From a virus, in the IMG/VR virus record IMGVR_UViG_3300030098_002912, positions 1 through 22,970 of that record: 22,970 bases of DNA. One strand, written 5' to 3'. Shown one piece after another: positions 1 through 4,951 of the stretch (the first letter of the stretch is position 1; every line of letters begins with the position of its first letter). Made by a program: the position numbers and the translations under genes. The notes beneath the pieces were generated by a model that was not told the DNA's origin, ran no database searches, and saw nothing but the letters and a program-made list of their open reading frames with translations.

Positions 1-17
1 ACCCACCGACGGAGGTG

Positions 18-320
18 TTATTTCTCTTCTTTTGTTATATCTGCATTAAACAGATACTCTATCTGTGTACCACCATCACCATTAGCGGTGAATTGTATAC
101 TGTTGTCCCATTCCTCAAAACCTGGAATATGCTTATCCATTTTAATCCAGATCGAAGGAGAGAACGTCTTAACTTTATCAATAAAGTCATTCTGCACGAC
201 TGTACCTGACAACAATGAGATATCCACCTCACTATTGAACAGAACAGCCCATGCATCATCAGAAAACTTAACACGATGACCGACTTTTAGATGTCGGGCA
301 TACTTGTCTGGATTTTCCAT
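18..320 (-). CDS. Small phage protein of unknown function (100 aa)
   Basis: I do not recognise this family. The protein is soluble and acidic, without signal peptide, membrane segment or obvious metal site. It has a VKFSDDAWAVLF segment near residues 17-28 and several Trp residues, which suggests a compact beta-rich fold. The start is fixed by a strong AGGAGG six bases before the ATG on the minus strand. It lies 10 bases downstream of the 77-aa gene and is probably co-transcribed with it from the promoter at 588-617. A short inverted repeat (CACC/GGTG at 4-7 and 14-17) follows the stop and may be the beginning of a terminator cut off by the window edge. Reality as a gene is well supported by the RBS and operon position; function is open. 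Confidence 0.8.
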   Translation of the reverse strand: MENPDKYARHLKVGHRVKFSDDAWAVLFNSEVDISLLSGTVVQNDFIDKVKTFSPSIWIKMDKHIPGFEEWDNSIQFTANGDGGTQIEYLFNADITKEEK

Positions 321-330
321 ATTTGTCCTC

Positions 331-564
331 CTAATTGTTAATTATTTCGTCGGCACCATGATGTGGTTCATCTTCCAAATTAAATGCACGGAGGTCTTCC
401 AGTTGCATTGGTTTCCTGAAGCGGAACTCCACGAATGGATTTCCACCGCCAGGACCAATAGCTGCAATAACCTTCATGCTACCTTCATATTTTTGGATGA
501 ACCCACATAAATCACCGAAATTGGCGTCTTCCGAGACGTCAACTCTGTAGATGTATATGGTCAT
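331..564 (-). CDS. Small phage protein of unknown function (77 aa)
   Basis: Unrecognised. Predicted beta-alpha-beta character: an N-terminal strand (MTIYIYRVDV), a helix containing FGDLCGFIQKY, then strands around VIAAIG and FVEFRFRK, with a GPGGG turn at about residues 37-41. The acidic, His-containing tail (EDEPHH) looks disordered. AGGAGA lies just upstream of the ATG. It is the first gene after the 588-617 promoter and immediately follows a strong terminator, so it starts a new transcription unit that also contains the 100-aa gene. Because the protein is short, acidic and leftward in an otherwise rightward structural genome, an early host-directed role is plausible but is inference only. 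Confidence 0.8.
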   Translation of the reverse strand: MTIYIYRVDVSEDANFGDLCGFIQKYEGSMKVIAAIGPGGGNPFVEFRFRKPMQLEDLRAFNLEDEPHHGADEIINN

Positions 565-587
565 ACTTTCTCCTGTCTTATTATTAT

Positions 588-617
588 ATTATATAATCAG
601 TTTTTCCGAAAATAAAC
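588..617 (-). promoter_or_regulatory. Leftward promoter with conserved 19-mer element, copy 1
   Basis: On the minus strand, GTTTATTTTCGGAAAAACT (599-617) is followed after 5 nt by TATAAT (588-593). The same 19-mer with one change and the same 5-nt gap to TATAAT occurs at 1444-1473. It sits between the terminator at 626-658 and the start of the 77-aa gene. The -35 position reads only TTTATT, so either the 19-mer recruits an activator or repressor, or this is a promoter for a non-sigma70 polymerase. Confidence 0.65.
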
Positions 618-625
618 AGATTTTA

Positions 626-658
626 ATAAAAAGGGGACTCCAGACATTTGGAATCCCC
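626..658 (-). terminator. Rho-independent terminator, leftward
   Basis: The leftward RNA forms a 10-bp stem (arms at 649-658 and 633-642, loop AAUGUC) including one U.G wobble, directly followed by UUUUUAUU. It begins 11 bases after the stop codon of the 85-aa gene. Read on the plus strand, the wobble becomes a C/A mismatch and the tail is poorer, so the leftward strand is the functional one. Confidence 0.9.
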
Positions 659-669
659 CGTTTATTTAT

Positions 670-927
670 TTATCCTCCCCATTCTTCATCATTACCGACT
701 TTATTGATTACCGCATTATAGACGGCCGTCCACAACTCAGCATATTCACCTTCATATGCCTTGCCCCAGTCTGGATCGTCTAAAGGGATAGTTTTAGTCA
801 TCTTACCCGCCCATATATTACCTTTTAAGGTAGGGATAATATTCCCCATTATATAATCGGTAAACTTAACTACCTCATCCTCATTAAAGCCGGAAGATTT
901 GAAGTGGTCTTTAAAAGACTTATCCAT
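670..927 (-). CDS. Small acidic phage protein of unknown function (85 aa)
   Basis: Unrecognised. The protein is rich in aromatic and acidic residues (WAGK, DDPDWGKAYEGEYAELWTAVYNAV) and ends DEEWGG; it appears helical and soluble. The start has a near-perfect GGAGG five bases upstream. It lies between two strong leftward hairpins: one at 953-981 separates it from the 127-aa gene, and the terminator at 626-658 ends it. No separate promoter is visible, so it probably depends on read-through of the upstream hairpin from the 1444-1473 promoter. That would lower its expression relative to the 127-aa gene. Confidence 0.8.
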   Translation of the reverse strand: MDKSFKDHFKSSGFNEDEVVKFTDYIMGNIIPTLKGNIWAGKMTKTIPLDDPDWGKAYEGEYAELWTAVYNAVINKVGNDEEWGG

Positions 928-952
928 ATTTTCCTCCGTTTTTATTAATTAA

Positions 953-981
953 GGACGACCCTAGATATACTAGAGTCGTCC
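953..981 (-). terminator. Strong intercistronic hairpin, probable leaky terminator
   Basis: Arms 953-964 and 970-981 form a 12-bp stem with the 5-nt loop UAUAU in the leftward RNA. One pair is U.G there but C/A on the other strand, which indicates leftward function. It follows the stop of the 127-aa gene by 10 nt. The downstream tract (UUAAUUAAUAAAAA) is only partly U-rich, so it may act as a partial terminator or an RNA end-protecting structure. Confidence 0.65.
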
Positions 982-991
982 CATTTATTAT

Positions 992-1375
992 CTATCCGTT
1001 TTTAGCGGATAGACAACCCAAACAACCTCTTCCAAGAGGGTCTGAACCTAGAAACCAATTACGGTAAAATCCAAGGATTCTTTCCGCTGGTTGTCTGATA
1101 AGACCTTCTGGGTTATCTTTCGATTTCTTACCCAAAAGTTTCTTATCAGCCGCTAATTGCTTAGCGATATTTTCTAGGTCTGCCCAAGAGTATGATTTAC
1201 CATTCTCTAAGGCACCCATTATAACCAAGGCTTGTTTAGGATAACCTTGAAGATTATCCAACTTTTTAAAAGTATAGGTAGTACCTTTCGATACTTTTTC
1301 TACTTTTTTATCAACCGCTTTGGTTATATTTTTGGAAGTTGGTTGGTTTTTTATAGAATTAGTCTGTATTTCCAT
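992..1375 (-). CDS. Phage protein of unknown function (127 aa), basic
   Basis: Unrecognised. The first 35 residues are Lys/Thr/Asn-rich and look disordered. Residues about 36-110 form a compact region (YTFKKLDNLQGYPKQALVIMGALENGKSYSWADLENIAKQ is its beginning, up to RILGFYRNWFL at the end) with spacing reminiscent of a winged-helix fold, where a helix precedes the SWADLENIAKQL helix. The basic character agrees with nucleic-acid binding, but this is inference. The tail contains two Cys (GCLGC). GGAGGT lies seven bases upstream of the ATG. The gene is preceded by the 1444-1473 promoter and a ~65-nt leader. A 7-bp hairpin (CTATCCG/CGGATAG) spans its last codons and stop. Confidence 0.8.
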   Translation of the reverse strand: MEIQTNSIKNQPTSKNITKAVDKKVEKVSKGTTYTFKKLDNLQGYPKQALVIMGALENGKSYSWADLENIAKQLAADKKLLGKKSKDNPEGLIRQPAERILGFYRNWFLGSDPLGRGCLGCLSAKNG

Positions 1376-1443
1376 AATTAACCTCCAATTTCTTCTTTCT
1401 TTTTAATGGGAAGGACTAAAAATAATCCCTCACCATTATCTTT

Positions 1444-1473
1444 ATTATATATAGAGTTTATCCGAAAATAAAC
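1444..1473 (-). promoter_or_regulatory. Leftward promoter with conserved 19-mer element, copy 2
   Basis: Minus strand GTTTATTTTCGGATAAACT (1455-1473), then 5 nt, then TATAAT (1444-1449). It matches copy 1 at 588-617 in 18 of 19 bases and in spacing. In this copy the 19-mer plus its next base forms an inverted repeat (AGTTTA, 8 nt, TAAACT), as expected for a dimeric regulator site. It lies about 70 nt upstream of the 127-aa gene. Confidence 0.65.
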
Positions 1474-1490
1474 TACTATTTTAGCCTATT

Positions 1491-1504
1491 TTAAATTAAT
1501 TTAA
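1491..1504. repeat. 14-bp perfect AT palindrome
   Basis: TTAAATTAATTTAA is fully self-complementary. It lies about 18 bp upstream of the 1444-1473 promoter element. In such AT-rich DNA it may be chance, or an upstream binding site for a regulator. Apart from this and the promoter, I see no gene in 1376-1537. Confidence 0.4.
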
Positions 1505-1522
1505 TATTAGGAGATCCGGATT

Positions 1523-1558
1523 GATTAAAAATCAGTTTTAATCGCGGACGCGCGCGAT
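1523..1558 (-). other. Two tandem hairpins at the 3' end of the 52-aa ORF
   Basis: In the leftward RNA, a GC-rich stem (AUCGCG/CGCGAU, 6 bp, arms 1553-1558 and 1541-1546) is followed by an AU stem (GAUUAAAA/UUUUAAUC, 8 bp, arms 1536-1543 and 1523-1530). They share 1541-1543, so only one can be complete at a time. They cover the stop codon of the 52-aa ORF and could protect its 3' end or act as an imperfect terminator. There is no U-run directly after the GC stem. Confidence 0.5.
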
Positions 1559-1696
1559 TTCTAATAGAGTCTTGACGGACGATTTTCGATAAAGGAACCT
1601 TAAACCAGTCGCTTTTGACACTTCGCGGAGGTCCTTAATTCGGCGCATTTCGGTCTTCGGTCCGCGGCTTTCAATCCGGTATAATTTTATACACAA
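1538..1696 (-). CDS. Possible 52-aa basic protein, weak Rho-N/SAP-like motif, TTG start
   Basis: This ORF is below 60 codons. It starts at a TTG with GGAGG exactly six bases upstream and ends TAA. An internal ATG at 1648 would give a 36-residue form. The frame is closed by TAG 10 codons upstream of the TTG, so no ATG is available to extend it. The translated product is very basic. Its second half, KDLREVSKATGLRFLYRKSS followed by VKTLLEIARVRD, has the spacing of a helix-loop-helix of the SAP/Rho-N type (L-E-A-GL-Y-K-L-I), a nucleic-acid-binding fold. That match is by eye and weak. Its codons are much richer in CGC, GCG and GTC than neighbouring genes. This may mean foreign origin, or that the GC-rich RNA structure is what is conserved. 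Against it: short length and rare start. Confidence 0.45.
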   Translation of the reverse strand: MCIKLYRIESRGPKTEMRRIKDLREVSKATGLRFLYRKSSVKTLLEIARVRD

Positions 1697-1698
1697 CT

Positions 1699-1782
1699 CT
1701 GGCCTCCAGTTACGCTTTACTGGCTAGCGACAAATCCTAATTGTCAGTTATACAATCATAGGCATCACCTCATAATATTGTA
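1699..1782 (-). promoter_or_regulatory. Structured leader before the 52-aa ORF, attenuator-like
   Basis: Leftward from the stop of the 58-aa gene there is a good RBS (GAGGTG) followed only by mini-ORFs (MIV or MPMIV, ending at about 1748). Next comes a GACAA/TTGTC hairpin (1729-1745). After it come three mutually complementary segments: CCAGT (1719-1723), ACTGG (1706-1710) and CCAG (1699-1702). The middle segment overlaps the GGAGG of the 52-aa ORF, so one pairing or the other can form. That is the layout of a translational attenuator. It is inferred from sequence only. Confidence 0.35.
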
Positions 1783-1959
1783 TTAGTCTTCTATTTGTAT
1801 GTCATCTGCATAAGTTTCCTCAGCGATGTGACAACTTAGATCGTGATATTCTTCACATATGTCTAAGATAGTCGCATCACCTAACTTACGCAATGACTCA
1901 GCAGTATCAGGTACTTTTAAGGTACAAGTACTCTTAAAAGTAATAACTACTTTTGCCAT
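1783..1959 (-). CDS. Small phage protein of unknown function (58 aa)
   Basis: Unrecognised. Starts MAKVVITFKSTCTLKVPD, an N-terminal beta hairpin, then a helix (TAESLRKLGDATILDICEEY) and an acidic tail. Two in-frame ATGs exist. The upstream one (1965) directly abuts AGGAG with no spacer, while the second (1959) has the usual 6-nt spacer, so I choose the second. The gene follows the zinc-ribbon gene by 25 nt on the same strand and is likely in the same leftward operon. No regulatory signal of its own is seen. Confidence 0.75.
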   Translation of the reverse strand: MAKVVITFKSTCTLKVPDTAESLRKLGDATILDICEEYHDLSCHIAEETYADDIQIED

Positions 1960-1984
1960 AGTCATCTCCTTTTGTTATATTGGA

Positions 1985-2197
1985 TTATTCTTCGTGTAAA
2001 TGATCTACGAGTTGGACTAAGCCATATTTCTTAGCTTCTTCCTCACTCAAGTCCAGATTATAGCCATACACAACACCTTGGTAAAAACCGCAGTAGTTGC
2101 AATAATGTACAACTGAGTACGCAGGTTCACTGTTATACTCAGTTAACATTTGTTTACCACAATCTGGACAAGTAGAGTCTTCAATAGAATTACTCAT
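1985..2197 (-). CDS. Zinc-ribbon protein (70 aa)
   Basis: Two CxxC knuckles, CPDC at residues 10-13 and CNYC at 33-36 with a Gly after each, form a classic four-cysteine zinc ribbon filling the first 40 residues. The rest is a helix with LSEEEAKKYG and a His-rich end (DHLHEE). Such tiny zinc ribbons are common in phages and usually bind nucleic acid or another protein; which one cannot be said here. AGAGGA precedes the ATG at suitable distance. A GGGAC/GTCCC hairpin (2218-2233) lies between it and the upstream 122-aa gene. The fold call is solid; the partner is unknown. Confidence 0.85.
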   Translation of the reverse strand: MSNSIEDSTCPDCGKQMLTEYNSEPAYSVVHYCNYCGFYQGVVYGYNLDLSEEEAKKYGLVQLVDHLHEE

Positions 2198-2217
2198 ATT
2201 GTCCTCTTATTGTTGGT

Positions 2218-2233
2218 GGGACGTCCATGTCCC
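2218..2233 (-). other. Intercistronic hairpin
   Basis: GGGAC/GTCCC 5-bp stem with a 6-nt loop in the 48-nt gap between the 122-aa gene and the zinc-ribbon gene, about 20 nt before the zinc-ribbon start. No U-run follows, so processing or RNA stabilisation is more likely than termination. Confidence 0.5.
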
Positions 2234-2245
2234 GGTTTATTATCC

Positions 2246-2614
2246 TTACTTGTTAGCGTTAGCTAGATCAAGTTTGTAGTGTATGCCACTAAACAAACGT
2301 TGTCTTTTAGGACCCTCTGATTTTTTAAGATCAAAGTAGTACTTAAGACAAGCTTTAGGTGCTAAACGGTACTTGTCAGAGTAACCATCTATACCACCCT
2401 CAGCATGACGTTTGTTGAGCTCATCAAGGTACTTCCAAAATGCCGTGATAGACATAGTCGTATCAGACATTCCGTCAGCCTCAATAGTCTCCCAAAGCTT
2501 GATAAGTTGGTAAGGAACGAATTCCAAACTCATCTTACCAGAAGCCTTGAGAGAACTAGCGCTCACAAGCTCGATCGAACCAACACCAGACTTAGCGTAA
2601 ATTGCCAGTTTCAT
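2246..2614 (-). CDS. Phage protein of unknown function (122 aa)
   Basis: Unrecognised. The N-terminus (MKLAIYAKSGVGSIELVSAS) looks like a beta hairpin. The middle is helical (FVPYQLIKLWETIEADG, TAFWKYLDELNKRHAEGG) and the end is basic (KKSEGPKRQRLFSG). There is no membrane segment and no catalytic motif I know. GGAG lies eight bases before the ATG. It follows the 38-aa gene across a hairpin-containing gap. A 138-codon frame on the opposite strand (2405-2821) overlaps it but is judged an artefact because this gene has the RBS and sits in a co-directional row. Confidence 0.75.
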   Translation of the reverse strand: MKLAIYAKSGVGSIELVSASSLKASGKMSLEFVPYQLIKLWETIEADGMSDTTMSITAFWKYLDELNKRHAEGGIDGYSDKYRLAPKACLKYYFDLKKSEGPKRQRLFSGIHYKLDLANANK

Positions 2615-2639
2615 AGTGTTATCTCCGTCGATAATTATA

Positions 2640-2673
2640 CTAGAGGTCCTATTACTAGGTCCTATTCCTCTAG
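2640..2673 (-). other. Hairpin with internal tandem repeat upstream of the 122-aa gene
   Basis: CTAGAGG (2640-2646) and CCTCTAG (2667-2673) form a 7-bp stem. The 20-nt loop region contains most of two copies of AGGTCCTATT (2644-2653 and 2657-2666, 13-bp period). The structure overlaps the stop codon of the 38-aa gene. A TATAAT (minus strand, about 2634-2639) sits immediately downstream, so it could also be part of an internal promoter or its operator. Confidence 0.45.
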
Positions 2674-2778
2674 CTTACTTAATTGCTCAAGAACATTCTC
2701 TTCTTCTGGATTAAGAGAAGAAAGAGCCTCTTCAAGAGCGATGAGCTCTTTTAATAGCTCATCAATGTCATTTATCAT
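2662..2778 (-). CDS. Very small acidic helical protein (38 aa)
   Basis: ATG with a perfect AGGAGGT six bases upstream. The translated product (MINDIDELLKELIALEEALS, then SLNPEEENVLEQLSKLEE) is strongly acidic, with Leu/Ile at heptad-like spacing. It should form one or two amphipathic helices, that is a small coiled-coil module or helical hairpin broken at the Asn-Pro. A protein like this can only act by binding a partner, for example as an inhibitor or DNA mimic; the target is unknown. It sits in the leftward row between the 54-aa and 122-aa genes. The RBS quality and direction are the main evidence for it. Confidence 0.7.
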   Translation of the reverse strand: MINDIDELLKELIALEEALSSLNPEEENVLEQLSKLEE

Positions 2779-2836
2779 GACACACCTCCTGCTTACGCGT
2801 TATGGTTATAATTCTAGATGATAAGAACGTATTGTC

Positions 2837-3001
2837 TTACCAGTTACCGTCTATAACATCTTGAACGAGTTTATAGACTTCATATACTTCTTCATACGTA
2901 AGTTCGCTAGGCTTACGAATGCAGACAGTATACTTGGAATCAGGTACTCTCTCATGTAAAAGGTCAAGAGCCTGCCTTAGTTTAGTTCTAGGATCCGCCA
3001 T
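2837..3001 (-). CDS. Small phage protein of unknown function (54 aa)
   Basis: ATG at 3001 with GGGAGGA upstream at good spacing. The product begins MADPRTKLRQALDLLHERVP, a basic amphipathic helix. It continues with a beta segment (DSKYTVCIRKP) and a second helix (ELTYEEVYEVYKLVQDVIDG), ending NW. The helix-strand-helix pattern and lack of low-complexity sequence make it look like a genuine folded miniprotein. I do not recognise it. Inverted repeats (GGC/GCC at 3016-3026) sit right next to its RBS and could modulate translation. Confidence 0.7.
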   Translation of the reverse strand: MADPRTKLRQALDLLHERVPDSKYTVCIRKPSELTYEEVYEVYKLVQDVIDGNW

Positions 3002-3056
3002 CTCTTCTTCCTCCCGGCTTATCGCCTATGGGCCTCTTCCCTGAGGACTTGTACTA

Positions 3057-3209
3057 TTAAATGTAATGTCGTACGAACATGATCTTCTTATCTTCATCAA
3101 TACGCTCGATGTAGACCTTCCAATCACGTAAGACAGACTGTATCTGGTATAGCGCCAAGCGTTCATGCACTCGGACTACATAACCAGTGTCAGTTATTAT
3201 CTTCCACAT
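3057..3209 (-). CDS. Small phage protein of unknown function (50 aa), first leftward gene
   Basis: ATG at 3209, AGAGGT eight bases upstream. The product (MWKIITDTGYVVRVHERLAL, then YQIQSVLRDWKVYIERIDED and KKIMFVRHYI) reads as strand-strand-helix-strand. It is mixed-charge and Trp/Tyr-containing, and the hydrophobic pattern supports a real fold. It is the gene nearest the divergent control region and would be the first translated in the leftward transcript, about 130 nt from the promoter candidate at 3338-3366. Function unknown. Confidence 0.7.
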   Translation of the reverse strand: MWKIITDTGYVVRVHERLALYQIQSVLRDWKVYIERIDEDKKIMFVRHYI

Positions 3210-3316
3210 GTTTATTACCTCTTATTTTTGTTGTTTTAACCTAAAGGGCCCCGGGGGGCATTATTAAGGATTTCATTTATTCTTCTACTAACCCAGTTTT
3301 TGGGGAGGGGATCTTT

Positions 3317-3345
3317 TTGACTTCTGACAAAATCCGTAAAATAAT
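3317..3345 (+). promoter_or_regulatory. Sigma70-like promoter candidate for the terminase operon
   Basis: TTGACT (3317-3322), 17-nt spacer, AATAAT (3340-3345). The start would fall near 3352, giving a ~30-nt leader to terS. Its -10 overlaps the -10 of the leftward candidate at 3338-3343, so both could not fire at once. Confidence 0.5.
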
Positions 3346-3366
3346 TGTACAAATTCCGAAATAAGT
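3338..3366 (-). promoter_or_regulatory. Leftward promoter candidate, degenerate third copy of the conserved element
   Basis: Minus strand ACTTATTTCGGAATTTGT (3349-3366), a 5-nt gap, then TATTTT (3338-3343). It shares TTATTT-CGGA and the 5-nt gap with the copies at 588-617 and 1444-1473, but lacks one T and has a weaker -10. It is correctly placed to drive the whole leftward block starting at 3209. Confidence 0.4.
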
Positions 3367-3374
3367 GTTATAAA
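3345..3374 (+). promoter_or_regulatory. Extended -10 promoter that could give leaderless terS mRNA
   Basis: TTGTAC (3345-3350), 18-nt spacer, TATAAA (3369-3374) preceded by TG at 3366-3367 (the TGn extended -10 signature). The expected start, about 7 nt after the -10, is 3381-3382, which is the A of the terS ATG. No Shine-Dalgarno sequence is present before that ATG. Confidence 0.45.
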
Positions 3375-3381
3375 TACTCAT

Positions 3382-3678
3382 ATGGCAAATGGTGGCAAAA
3401 GACCTGGAGCTGGTAGACCAGCAGGGTCAAAGAACAAGAGGACTCAGGAAATCCAAGATCGGTTAGACGACCTTGGCGTAGACCCTATTGAAGGTTTAGC
3501 AATGATTGTTAAAGACCCGAACAATAGTTCTGAGTTAAAATTTCAATGTTTAAAGGAGCTAGCACAATACGTCGCGCCGAAGCGTAAAGCTGTCGACGTG
3601 AACCAAGTGTCAACAGGAGAGATGACAATCGAGGTTGTCAAATTCTCAGACGATTTTGAAGATCAGAATACCACATAA
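3382..3678 (+). CDS. terS: Terminase small subunit (TerS)
   Basis: 98 aa. The N-terminus (GGKRPGAGRPAGSKNKRT) is the basic, Gly/Pro-rich DNA-contacting arm that opens many phage small-terminase-type proteins. The middle is helical (TQEIQDRLDDLGVDPIEGLA, then SSELKFQCLKELAQYVAPKR) and the tail is acidic, probably for contact with the large subunit. It is shorter than typical TerS (140-180 aa), so it may be a minimal form. In the complex it recognises the packaging site and loads the large subunit. The ATG has no RBS; see the extended -10 promoter, which suggests leaderless translation. Its 3' end overlaps the terL start. The assignment rests on the arm motif and on adjacency to TerL. Confidence 0.8.
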   Translation: MANGGKRPGAGRPAGSKNKRTQEIQDRLDDLGVDPIEGLAMIVKDPNNSSELKFQCLKELAQYVAPKRKAVDVNQVSTGEMTIEVVKFSDDFEDQNTT

Positions 3679-4951
3679 TTGGAAACCAAGAGACTATCAA
3701 CTTCCACTTTGGAAGTTCTTAGAGAAAGGTGGCAAACGGGCTGTAGCAGTATGGCACCGTCGTGCTGGCAAGGATTTATGTTCCATTAACTGGTGTGCAG
3801 TATGCGCGTTAAAGCGTCCAGGACTATACTGGCATCTCTTCCCTACCTATAACCAAGGACGAAAAATAGCTTGGGACGGTATGACCAGGGACGGTCGTAA
3901 GTTCATTGACCACTTTCCAGAAGAATTAGTAGCAGCAAAAAATAATACTGAAATGAGATTAACCTTGAAGAACGGTTCAATCTATCAGGTTGTCGGTACA
4001 GATAACGTTGACAGGTTGATTGGAGCCAATCCTGTAGGTGTAATCTTTTCAGAGTACTCGGTCCAAGACCCACGGGCCTGGGATTATATCAGACCTATCC
4101 TTGCAGAAAATGAAGGTTGGGCTGTGTTTATCTATACAGCTAGGGGCCGTAATCACGGGTATGAACTGTATAGTATGGGACGTAAAAATGAGAAATGGTT
4201 TAGTCAGAGTCTGTCGATCGACGATACACGGGCTGTGACCCAAGAGGCAATTGACGATGAACGCGACGCTGGAATGCCTGAGGAGATGATCCAGCAAGAG
4301 TTCTATTGCTCATTCGACGCTCCTTTAGTCGGGTCGTACTATGGTAACCCAATGGCAAAAGCTCTGGCCGATAAGCGAATTGTTAAGGTACCGTACGATC
4401 CGCTATTGGACGTGCACACCGCCTGGGACTTAGGTATGGGAGATTCTACTAGTATTATCTTTTACCAAACTGTCGGTTCTGAGATCAGGCTTATCGATTA
4501 CTATGAAAATCAAGGGGAAGGCCTAGCTCACTATATTAAGACATTGAGAGAAAAGGACTACGTTTATGGGGAACATATAGCACCGCACGATATAAAAGTT
4601 AGGGAGATGTCAACTGGGAGGTCTCGTTTAGAATCTGCCCGAGATTTAGGAATCAAGTTCCGTGTCATTCCTAACCTTAGAATTGAAGACGGGATTGAAG
4701 CCGTAAGAACCATATTACCTAGGTGTTACTTTGACGAGGACAAATGTGCTCACCTTGTAGAAGCTTTAAGACAGTACCGTAAAGATTTTGACGAGAAGAA
4801 TAAGTGCTTTAAGGATAGACCCTTGCACGATTGGTCTTCTCACCCGGCCGATGCTATGAGGTATCTGGCCCTAGCTATTAGAGATAGACAGAATAGTAAG
4901 ATGAAGAAGCTACCTAGACAAGCAGACCAGGAGTATCAGATATTAGGATAA
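3635..4951 (+). CDS. terL: Terminase large subunit (TerL): packaging ATPase and nuclease
   Basis: 438 aa, normal length. The ATPase domain has a variant Walker A, HRRAGKD (41-47), Walker B VGVIFSE (134-140) with Glu140 as the likely catalytic base, and a TAR coupling motif (168-170). The RNase H-like nuclease domain shows acidic positions in AWDLG (Asp265), HD (Asp319) and HPADAMR (Asp406). It cuts concatemeric DNA and pumps it through the portal. No in-frame ATG exists before Walker A. The frame opens with TTG at 3635, inside terS and in a different frame. A second TTG at 3656 gives a start MKIRIPHNWKPRDYQ, which resembles the usual family N-terminus. Neither has a well-spaced RBS, so translational coupling to terS (overlap 44 or 23 nt) is likely. 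The product call is secure; the start is not. Confidence 0.95.
   Translation: MSNSQTILKIRIPHNWKPRDYQLPLWKFLEKGGKRAVAVWHRRAGKDLCSINWCAVCALKRPGLYWHLFPTYNQGRKIAWDGMTRDGRKFIDHFPEELVAAKNNTEMRLTLKNGSIYQVVGTDNVDRLIGANPVGVIFSEYSVQDPRAWDYIRPILAENEGWAVFIYTARGRNHGYELYSMGRKNEKWFSQSLSIDDTRAVTQEAIDDERDAGMPEEMIQQEFYCSFDAPLVGSYYGNPMAKALADKRIVKVPYDPLLDVHTAWDLGMGDSTSIIFYQTVGSEIRLIDYYENQGEGLAHYIKTLREKDYVYGEHIAPHDIKVREMSTGRSRLESARDLGIKFRVIPNLRIEDGIEAVRTILPRCYFDEDKCAHLVEALRQYRKDFDEKNKCFKDRPLHDWSSHPADAMRYLALAIRDRQNSKMKKLPRQADQEYQILG

Follow-up and report, generated by a model that had tools for sequence, protein, structure and literature searches.

Two leftward promoters of sigma70-type form, P1 and P2, were found to stand before small genes in a 22,970-nt stretch of viral DNA (positions 1 to 22,970 of IMG/VR record IMGVR_UViG_3300030098_002912; this whole stretch is termed the window). 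Their form, their spacing, their placement, their conservation in related phages and a constraint on the letters of their spacers were all observed directly. The repeat formed by P1 and P2 is real and non-random, and it is explained at a first level as host-type promoters. Taking the evidence as a whole, we consider it probable that both promoters are read by the host and that a site within their spacers is bound by a trans-acting regulator, a reading drawn from comparison of the sequences.

The DNA of the window belongs to a tailed phage and covers part of its genome. Its small genes read leftward, and a podovirus-like structural module (terminase, head-tail adaptor, major head protein and tail proteins) reads rightward. 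The longest close relative, G003 (43,175 nt, completeness not given), adds leftward genes for thymidylate synthase, DNA polymerase A, UvrD- and SNF2-type helicases, an AEP-type primase, DUF932 and others, with the replication-type genes on the same strand as P1, P2 and a third copy of the promoter, P3. Relatives of the terminase were detected at 14 loci of bacterial or archaeal assemblies (identity ≤58%), and 8 of these 14 assembly titles name alphaproteobacterial groups, among which we presumed Minwuiaceae, Rhizobiaceae and Rhizobiales to belong. These titles hint at the host group without fixing the host. Coordinates of the features discussed below are listed in Table 1.

Table 1. Features of the window, with positions counted from its first nucleotide.
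Feature	Position	Strand	Description
Gene downstream of P2	331..564	-	77-aa protein with conserved GPGGGNP; family in 19/45 left arms
P2 promoter	588..617	-	G + TTTATT (-35, 611-616) + 17-nt spacer (594-610) + TATAAT (-10, 588-593)
Terminator-like hairpin immediately upstream of P2	629..662	-	sequence scan
Terminator-like hairpin directly after P1 gene	953..981	-	12-pair stem with one G-T pair
Gene downstream of P1	992..1375	-	127-aa protein; family with PKQA...Q...RI..YY core
P1 promoter	1444..1473	-	G + TTTATT (-35, 1467-1472) + 17-nt spacer (1450-1466) + TATAAT (-10, 1444-1449)
P1 spacer element CGGAT	1460-1464	-	sequence
ATCCGTAAAATAA upstream of terminase -35	3332..3344	+	similar to ATCCGAAAATAA, which is the P1 spacer read on the plus strand
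Terminase (TerS) promoter	3346..3374	+	TGTACA, 17 nt, TATAAA; ATG at 3382

A repeated promoter unit before leftward small genes

The sequence GTTTATTTTCGGA[A/T]AAACT, followed after 5 nt by TATAAT, occurs twice in the window, on the minus strand both times. A sequence-only reading of this DNA had described two such 30-nt modules; it was accurate as to their positions, the 18/19 identity of their 19-mers, the identical interval (N5) between 19-mer and TATAAT, and the leftward ORFs that they precede (ATG at 564 and 1375, with the -10 ending 23 nt and 68 nt upstream, respectively). When up to three mismatches were allowed, the 19-mer was found at 2 places in the window, compared to a mean of 0.01 in 100 dinucleotide-preserving shuffles. 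Beyond the 19-mer, P1 and P2 agree at 6/6 positions of TATAAT and 2/5 of N5, and their flanks are unrelated (5/20 identical in the 20 nt upstream and 7/20 in the 20 nt downstream). This sharp loss of similarity outside the module indicates that the unit stands alone rather than ending some longer repeat.

The inverted repeat AGTTTA/TAAACT noted at 1455-1474 is likewise real. Compared to shuffles, pairing was 7/10 for P1 (P 0.008) and 5/10 for P2 (P 0.16), such that P1 alone among the window copies exceeds chance; at the related loci L003 and L005, P values were 0.004-0.04 for P1 and P2 and 0.11-0.12 for P3. The exact 19-mer was present in five IMG/VR stretches, three of which are the relatives G001-G003. 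L083 and L087, which also carry it, have identical surroundings of the match and are without TATAAT at N5.

In a search of 20 related records at ≤3 mismatches, P1 and P2 were found to be kept in G001, G002 and G003, and the remaining 17 records gave no module match. Counted by locus, P2 is kept in L003, L004 and L005. The third copy, P3 (GTTTATTTTGGGCTTAACT-N5-TATAAT), is present in the records G001 and G003; counted by locus, it is seen in L003 and L005. Its distance from the point in L005 where the left end of the window aligns is about 175 nt, outside the aligned part. A weight matrix built from these sites and applied to G003 gave 42-46 bits for P1-P3 and 13.8 bits for the next site, a value within the range of the best sites of five shuffled genomes (6.4-14.8). 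All three copies in G003 are on the leftward strand ahead of leftward small genes. Thus, the proposal that the module would recur before genes genome-wide survived this search, with three copies only, and the notion of a promoter module with a small shared promoter set is backed by these three leftward copies and by the absence of others elsewhere in G003.

Strict promoter-pattern sites in G003 numbered four, namely P1, P2, P3 and one rightward site before the terminase gene. This number does not exceed what chance yields (2.1, sd 1.2, with 5 as the largest value in 30 simulated genomes), and for G003 it is placement, rather than site number, that counts. A strict promoter of P1 form was found to precede the P1 gene family in 20/20 loci that hold the gene (window included). 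These were drawn from 25 near-group loci (window included; terminase identity ≥83%), several of them near-duplicates; no P1-family ORF was found in the stretch examined of L008, L009, L013, L021 and L024. For L011, L012 and L015-L019 a later gene start was assumed because the promoter overlaps or adjoins the first-ATG start used. Other P1-family members of the same genomes (e.g., those of 93 aa) have no such promoter ahead of them.

Read as a promoter, the 19-mer is composed of one G, the -35 hexamer and the first 12 nt of a 17-nt spacer. The -10 of P1, P2 and P3 is TATAAT, 6/6 to the sigma70 consensus. The -35 had been judged poor, and TTTATT indeed matches TTGACA at only 3/6 positions; by contrast, its location is exactly 17 nt from TATAAT, which indicates sigma70-type promoter geometry. 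In related lineages the same place is occupied by TTTACA, TGTACA or TATACT. The spacing was examined with the pattern T[ATG]TA[CT][ACT]-Nx-TA[TC]AA[TA], where x = 12 to 22, in 14 sequences (window included) from which near-duplicates had been removed. By this approach, 33 non-redundant matches were detected at 17 nt, 26 of them before gene starts, compared to 6-14 matches each at spacings of 12-16 and 18-22 (1-6 before gene starts). A looser pattern applied to 15 more distant left arms again peaked at 17 nt, with 27 matches versus 5-13 at 13-16 and 18-21. A generic promoter scan of the window returned 21 sites, with 10.1 expected, and missed P1 and P2 because it demands 4/6 matches in the -35. 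HTVC028P (MW273921) had no match to the strict promoter pattern. As a separate observation, the left arms of the more distant relatives L051, L065 and L079 contain repeated promoter-like stretches of a different appearance, which read AAAAAAGTGTTTACAAAT or nearly so and are preceded by long A/T tracts.

A perfect TATAAT, a 3/6 -35 and a conserved block at about -36 to -18 would also suit promoters of the T4 middle type, at which a phage protein on the 19-mer would replace the sigma70 contact with the -35. According to PMC2988021, T4 middle promoters have a MotA box, centred at -30, in place of the -35, and they share with P1-P3 a good -10, a poor -35 and a conserved block near -30. The two differ in that P1-P3 are without the MotA-box TGCTT 12 ± 1 bp from the -10. 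Moreover, the -35-like hexamer is kept exactly 17 nt away in all near groups, several relatives reading TTTACA or TGTACA, and no relationship between the P1-product family and T4 MotA could be detected. A direct profile comparison of the two did not support kinship (hhalign probability ~1%), despite weak matches of the family to PHROG and Pfam models of MotA (E 0.073 in 1/33 members; E 0.012 at best in 2/51). Based on the retained hexamer and the absence of a MotA relation in this comparison, we regard an activator-dependent promoter of this type as improbable.

An unfamiliar polymerase had been suggested as another reader of the module, and this alternative found no support. The T7-type RNA polymerase domain PF00940 was detected in 0/20 related records (several of them fragments; the record of the window lies outside this set), and sigma70 r2 and r4 domains in 0/9 records (window included; some records are fragments), with the T7 and bacterial positive controls matched; the geometry is the usual 17-nt -35/-10 arrangement. 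A compact, near-identical unit before several genes is what T7-like phages have, and to this extent P1-P3 resemble promoters that a phage-encoded polymerase or sigma factor would read. Against this origin, which we consider very improbable indeed, stand the domain searches and the restriction of the module to leftward small genes: no copy precedes structural genes in the window or in G003, although copies before late genes would be expected of a T7-type system. In addition, among the parts of G003 listed outside its main structural block, the largest ORF of replication function is a DNA polymerase of 620 aa, shorter than the 883-aa T7 RNA polymerase. Since neither a T7-type RNA polymerase nor a sigma factor was detected in the records searched, P1-P3 are most likely read by the RNA polymerase of the host together with its main sigma factor.

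Conserved spacer letters and the terminase promoter

Promoter spacers normally drift. In the window, L003 and L005, by contrast, P1 and P2 are each alike at 18/19 positions between unrelated flanks, with a different single change in each genome. The spacers of P1 read ACCGGATAAAATCAGAT in L015/L016, CCCGGATAAAATCAGAT in L017, TCGGATAAAATATATTG in L006 and TTCGGATAAACTCTATA in the window, and CGGATAAA is common to all of these, in an identical position or shifted by one nt, while the -35 hexamers of the promoters that share it differ (TGTACT, TATACT and TTTATT). CGGA was found at spacer position 2-3 in 7/15 distinct P1 spacers and in 4/8 hand-defined lineages. Among shuffled spacers, CGGA in register reached a mean of 0.02 lineages, and none of 20,000 shuffles reached 4. 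When the 30 nt upstream of the -35 and the spacer of 25 non-redundant promoters (one of which, at window 2057, lies inside a gene) were examined together, ATCCG/CGGAT was the most enriched 5-mer, present in 11/25 compared to 0.86 in mononucleotide shuffles; this 5-mer was picked after looking. Its background is 4.0% of random left-arm 47-mers, or 3.1% if these are matched for G+C. Spacers of promoters within one genome agree at a mean of 9.6/17 positions (13 pairs) versus 7.1/17 for different groups (103 pairs). As many of the loci are near-duplicates and the promoters are related by descent, these statistics overstate independence.

Counter-examples were also observed. CGGA in register is missing from P1 of L007, L010, L120 and the L014/L020-L026 group, the last of which has ATTCCG or AATCCG later in the spacer. 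P2 of the window reads CGGAA, and P3 reads GGGC. The P1 and P2 spacers of L007 are alike at 7/17 only, and some pairs from different groups reach 13.

The likeness of the spacers might instead reflect recency: plain host promoters, acting without a regulator, in a 30-nt block that was copied or converted between cassette borders. Cassettes do shuffle in this region. Window 32-305, a single-gene cassette of 274 nt, is 96.7% identical to L006 2365-2638, consistent with a recent exchange with L006, and up to the end of the terminase the rest of window 1-3330 does not align to L006 at the same sensitivity. The hairpin stretch beside P2 of the window has its closest counterpart at another gene border (L005 6942-6978, 89% over 37 columns), and no hairpin was reported beside P2 in L003 or L005. 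Copying is also in keeping with the compactness of the repeated unit and with the AAATCTG or AATCTG that P2 and P3 have in common directly ahead of it. Since the small-gene region is mosaic, copying of promoter blocks is a real rival for part of the similarity. Two observations weigh against it as the full account. The flanks of P1 and P2 are unrelated, yet 18/19 identity persists in three genomes, each with a different single change; and CGGATAAA is in register in L015-L017, where the -35 is TGTACT and not TTTATT, which recent copying within a genome leaves unexplained. We therefore judge copying without a regulator to be unlikely.

Failure of the spacers to drift freely, together with CGGA in register despite different -35 hexamers, makes it likely that a trans-acting regulator acts on P1-P3, perhaps as an early-to-late switch. 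The suggestion in the sequence-only reading that the 19-mer is a regulator site thus stands in part: conservation of spacer letters at a fixed position across lineages supports it indirectly, and the regulator itself is deduced from that conservation. The embedded site is best described as a likely one and a well-supported lead rather than a finding.

ATCCG, the core letters of the P1 spacer, recur ahead of the -35 of the terminase promoter. In the window, TCCGWA(3-4)TAA was detected, even with one mismatch, only at P2, at P1 and upstream of the terminase -35; at ≤1 mismatch 1.5 and 0.5 are expected per window, and three places are not significant by number. Not all relatives conform, as the terminase promoters of L005 and L006 read TTCG instead of TCCG. 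The -10 of the terminase promoter, TATAAA, ends 7 nt before the ATG and leaves no room for a ribosome-binding site (3346-3384). With the start codon at this distance, the terminase mRNA is probably leaderless. The arrangement is conserved across the near groups, and the promoter pattern with its ATG was found in 24 viral stretches, in at least one of which (L116) it is not before a terminase gene. Stretches that appear GC-rich by eye in this AT-rich genome were observed where the leftward genes and the terminase promoter diverge (window 3241-3312 and L006 5930-6060); a packaging or origin site is possible there.

Genes downstream of P1 and P2 and candidate regulators

A hairpin was found directly 3' of the P1-type gene in 5/6 loci scanned (the window, L003, L005, L006 and L007), with none reported after the gene in the sixth, L010. 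The sequences of these hairpins differ between loci. P1, its gene and the hairpin thus form a one-gene unit. The family of the P1 product was detected in 43/45 left arms examined, often with several members, and had no credible Pfam or PHROG match. A tblastn search of 50,697 records of annotated phages with the P1 and P2 genes gave no hit at E ≤ 1 and two hits at E 3, and a short paralog from L051 gave no hit at E ≤ 0.01 against annotated phages.

Upstream of P1, about 310 nt (window 1474-1782) are without a convincing gene. This region includes stretches 83-86% identical to L003, L004 and L005, and a plus-strand GATCCGGATTGATTAAAAATCA-like sequence; no Rfam match was found there. An RNA element near P1 was considered and rejected, as a search of window 1-3700 returned only a sub-threshold TPP match elsewhere (2226-2300, E 0.32, 22.3 versus 54.3 bits). 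A further repeat, a pair of 28-37 nt of the AAAAAGTGTATATAAATCAATAACTTAGGGCCCT type spaced 68-69 nt apart, was observed in the leftward region of L011, L014, L016-L020, L023, L025 and L026.

The P1 product is our first candidate for the regulator, and a ribbon-helix-helix protein is the second. For the window protein, the predicted structure (pLDDT 72.7) resembled known folds only weakly, and the matches were mixed. A relative from L006 (28% identical) was predicted at pLDDT 81.8, and its best structural match was a segment of a type-II methionine aminopeptidase (Z 7.1, rmsd 2.2 over 65 residues). The winged helix of RPC39 (2yu3) was also matched (Z 5.6, rmsd 6.8), as were NRC3/NRC4 and MukF; those matches other than 2yu3 that bear no winged-helix label we take to be winged-helix regions. 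Many ribosomal L30 proteins appeared among the lower-ranked matches. A structural Z below 8 may reflect nothing more than a common arrangement, and there are many winged-helix domains that do not bind DNA. From these middling Z scores, the core of the P1 product is predicted to be winged-helix-like. Foldseek gave no PDB hit at E ≤ 0.001, the L006 model matched two uncharacterised phage proteins in a viral structure library (E 1.3e-4 and 8e-3), and a PDB sequence search with the P1-family alignment A3 gave nothing credible (best E 0.14).

The gene for the ribbon-helix-helix protein was identified at L005 4051-4299 (PF07878, E 2.7e-5; its 24.2 bits fall slightly short of the 26-bit cut-off). The window does not extend as far as the corresponding place. 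Members of the family were found at 14 loci, every one of them in the near groups, which have promoters of this class; the more distant left arms yielded no member. Mere descent may account for this restriction.

A possible timing switch and its relation to known systems

Under the proposed mechanism, host RNA polymerase would start at P1-P3 soon after infection. P1 would drive the one-gene unit for a small, predicted winged-helix-like protein, ending in the hairpin, and P2 would drive the next cassette. A phage regulator would then accumulate, occupy the spacers of the CGGATAAA class (about -28 to -18, over the core of the promoter) and so lower transcription from P1-P3; when bound ahead of the terminase -35, it may assist the polymerase in engaging the rightward promoter. 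The sign of the regulator's effect and its identity are guesses. In the fullest version, which we offer tentatively from sequence comparison as a possibility and not as an expectation, a small phage protein (the P1 product or the ribbon-helix-helix protein) would recognise a CGGATAA-type core, shut the leftward promoters including its own, and activate the leaderless terminase promoter, with site specificity that drifts by lineage. It would provide a one-protein timing switch for polymerase-less podoviruses distantly related to pelagiphages. The terminase is about 40% identical to those of several pelagiphages (HTVC027P lies outside this comparison), which marks them as distant relatives.

A set of host-type promoters is by itself ordinary. 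In the pelagiphage HTVC027P, PMC12753301 describes all early-expressed genes as function-unknown and proposes that they are crucial for starting phage transcription. With a defined promoter set, a conserved internal site and two named candidates, the question of how transcription starts becomes directly testable. Among the titles and abstract openings covered by our literature search, none addresses promoters of this phage group; this set includes PMC10504331, which concerns HTVC010P-type phages and mentions promoters.

Compared to sigma70/SigA-type early promoters of phages such as phi29 and T4, the promoters described here likewise have a TATAAT -10, a -35-like hexamer at 17 nt and small leftward genes, and no phage polymerase was found here, in which they are also alike. 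They differ in a -35 of the form TNTAYW and not TTGACA, and in the conservation of their spacer letters. Mobile promoter-stem-loop cassettes of T4-type phages, reportedly described by Arbiol et al. in 2010, similarly combine a promoter and a hairpin at the borders of swapped small genes; by contrast, the hairpin here lies by P2 in the window and not in L005, and the spacer is constrained across lineages. That study is cited in PMC4177764.

The start-associated sequences (SAS) of cluster K mycobacteriophages, 13-bp GGGATAGGAGCCC elements typically 3-7 bp from the start codon, and their extended form (ESAS), which has inverted repeats, likewise place a short repeat before small non-structural genes, according to PMC3203893. 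The repeat described here differs in being a promoter, with its -10 ending 23 or 68 nt before the start codon, and in having three copies only, and the SAS element as defined there is absent from the 3-7 bp before the start codons at 564 and 1375. A parallel in logic is offered by protein p4 of phi29, which PMC3100819 describes as required to repress the early promoters A2b/A2c and activate the late promoter A3 with the host sigma factor. By analogy, the proposed switch would also employ one early protein, promoters on opposite strands and a host sigma factor; in contrast to p4, both the regulator and its two effects are here deduced from sequence, and the putative sites lie in the spacers of separate promoters.
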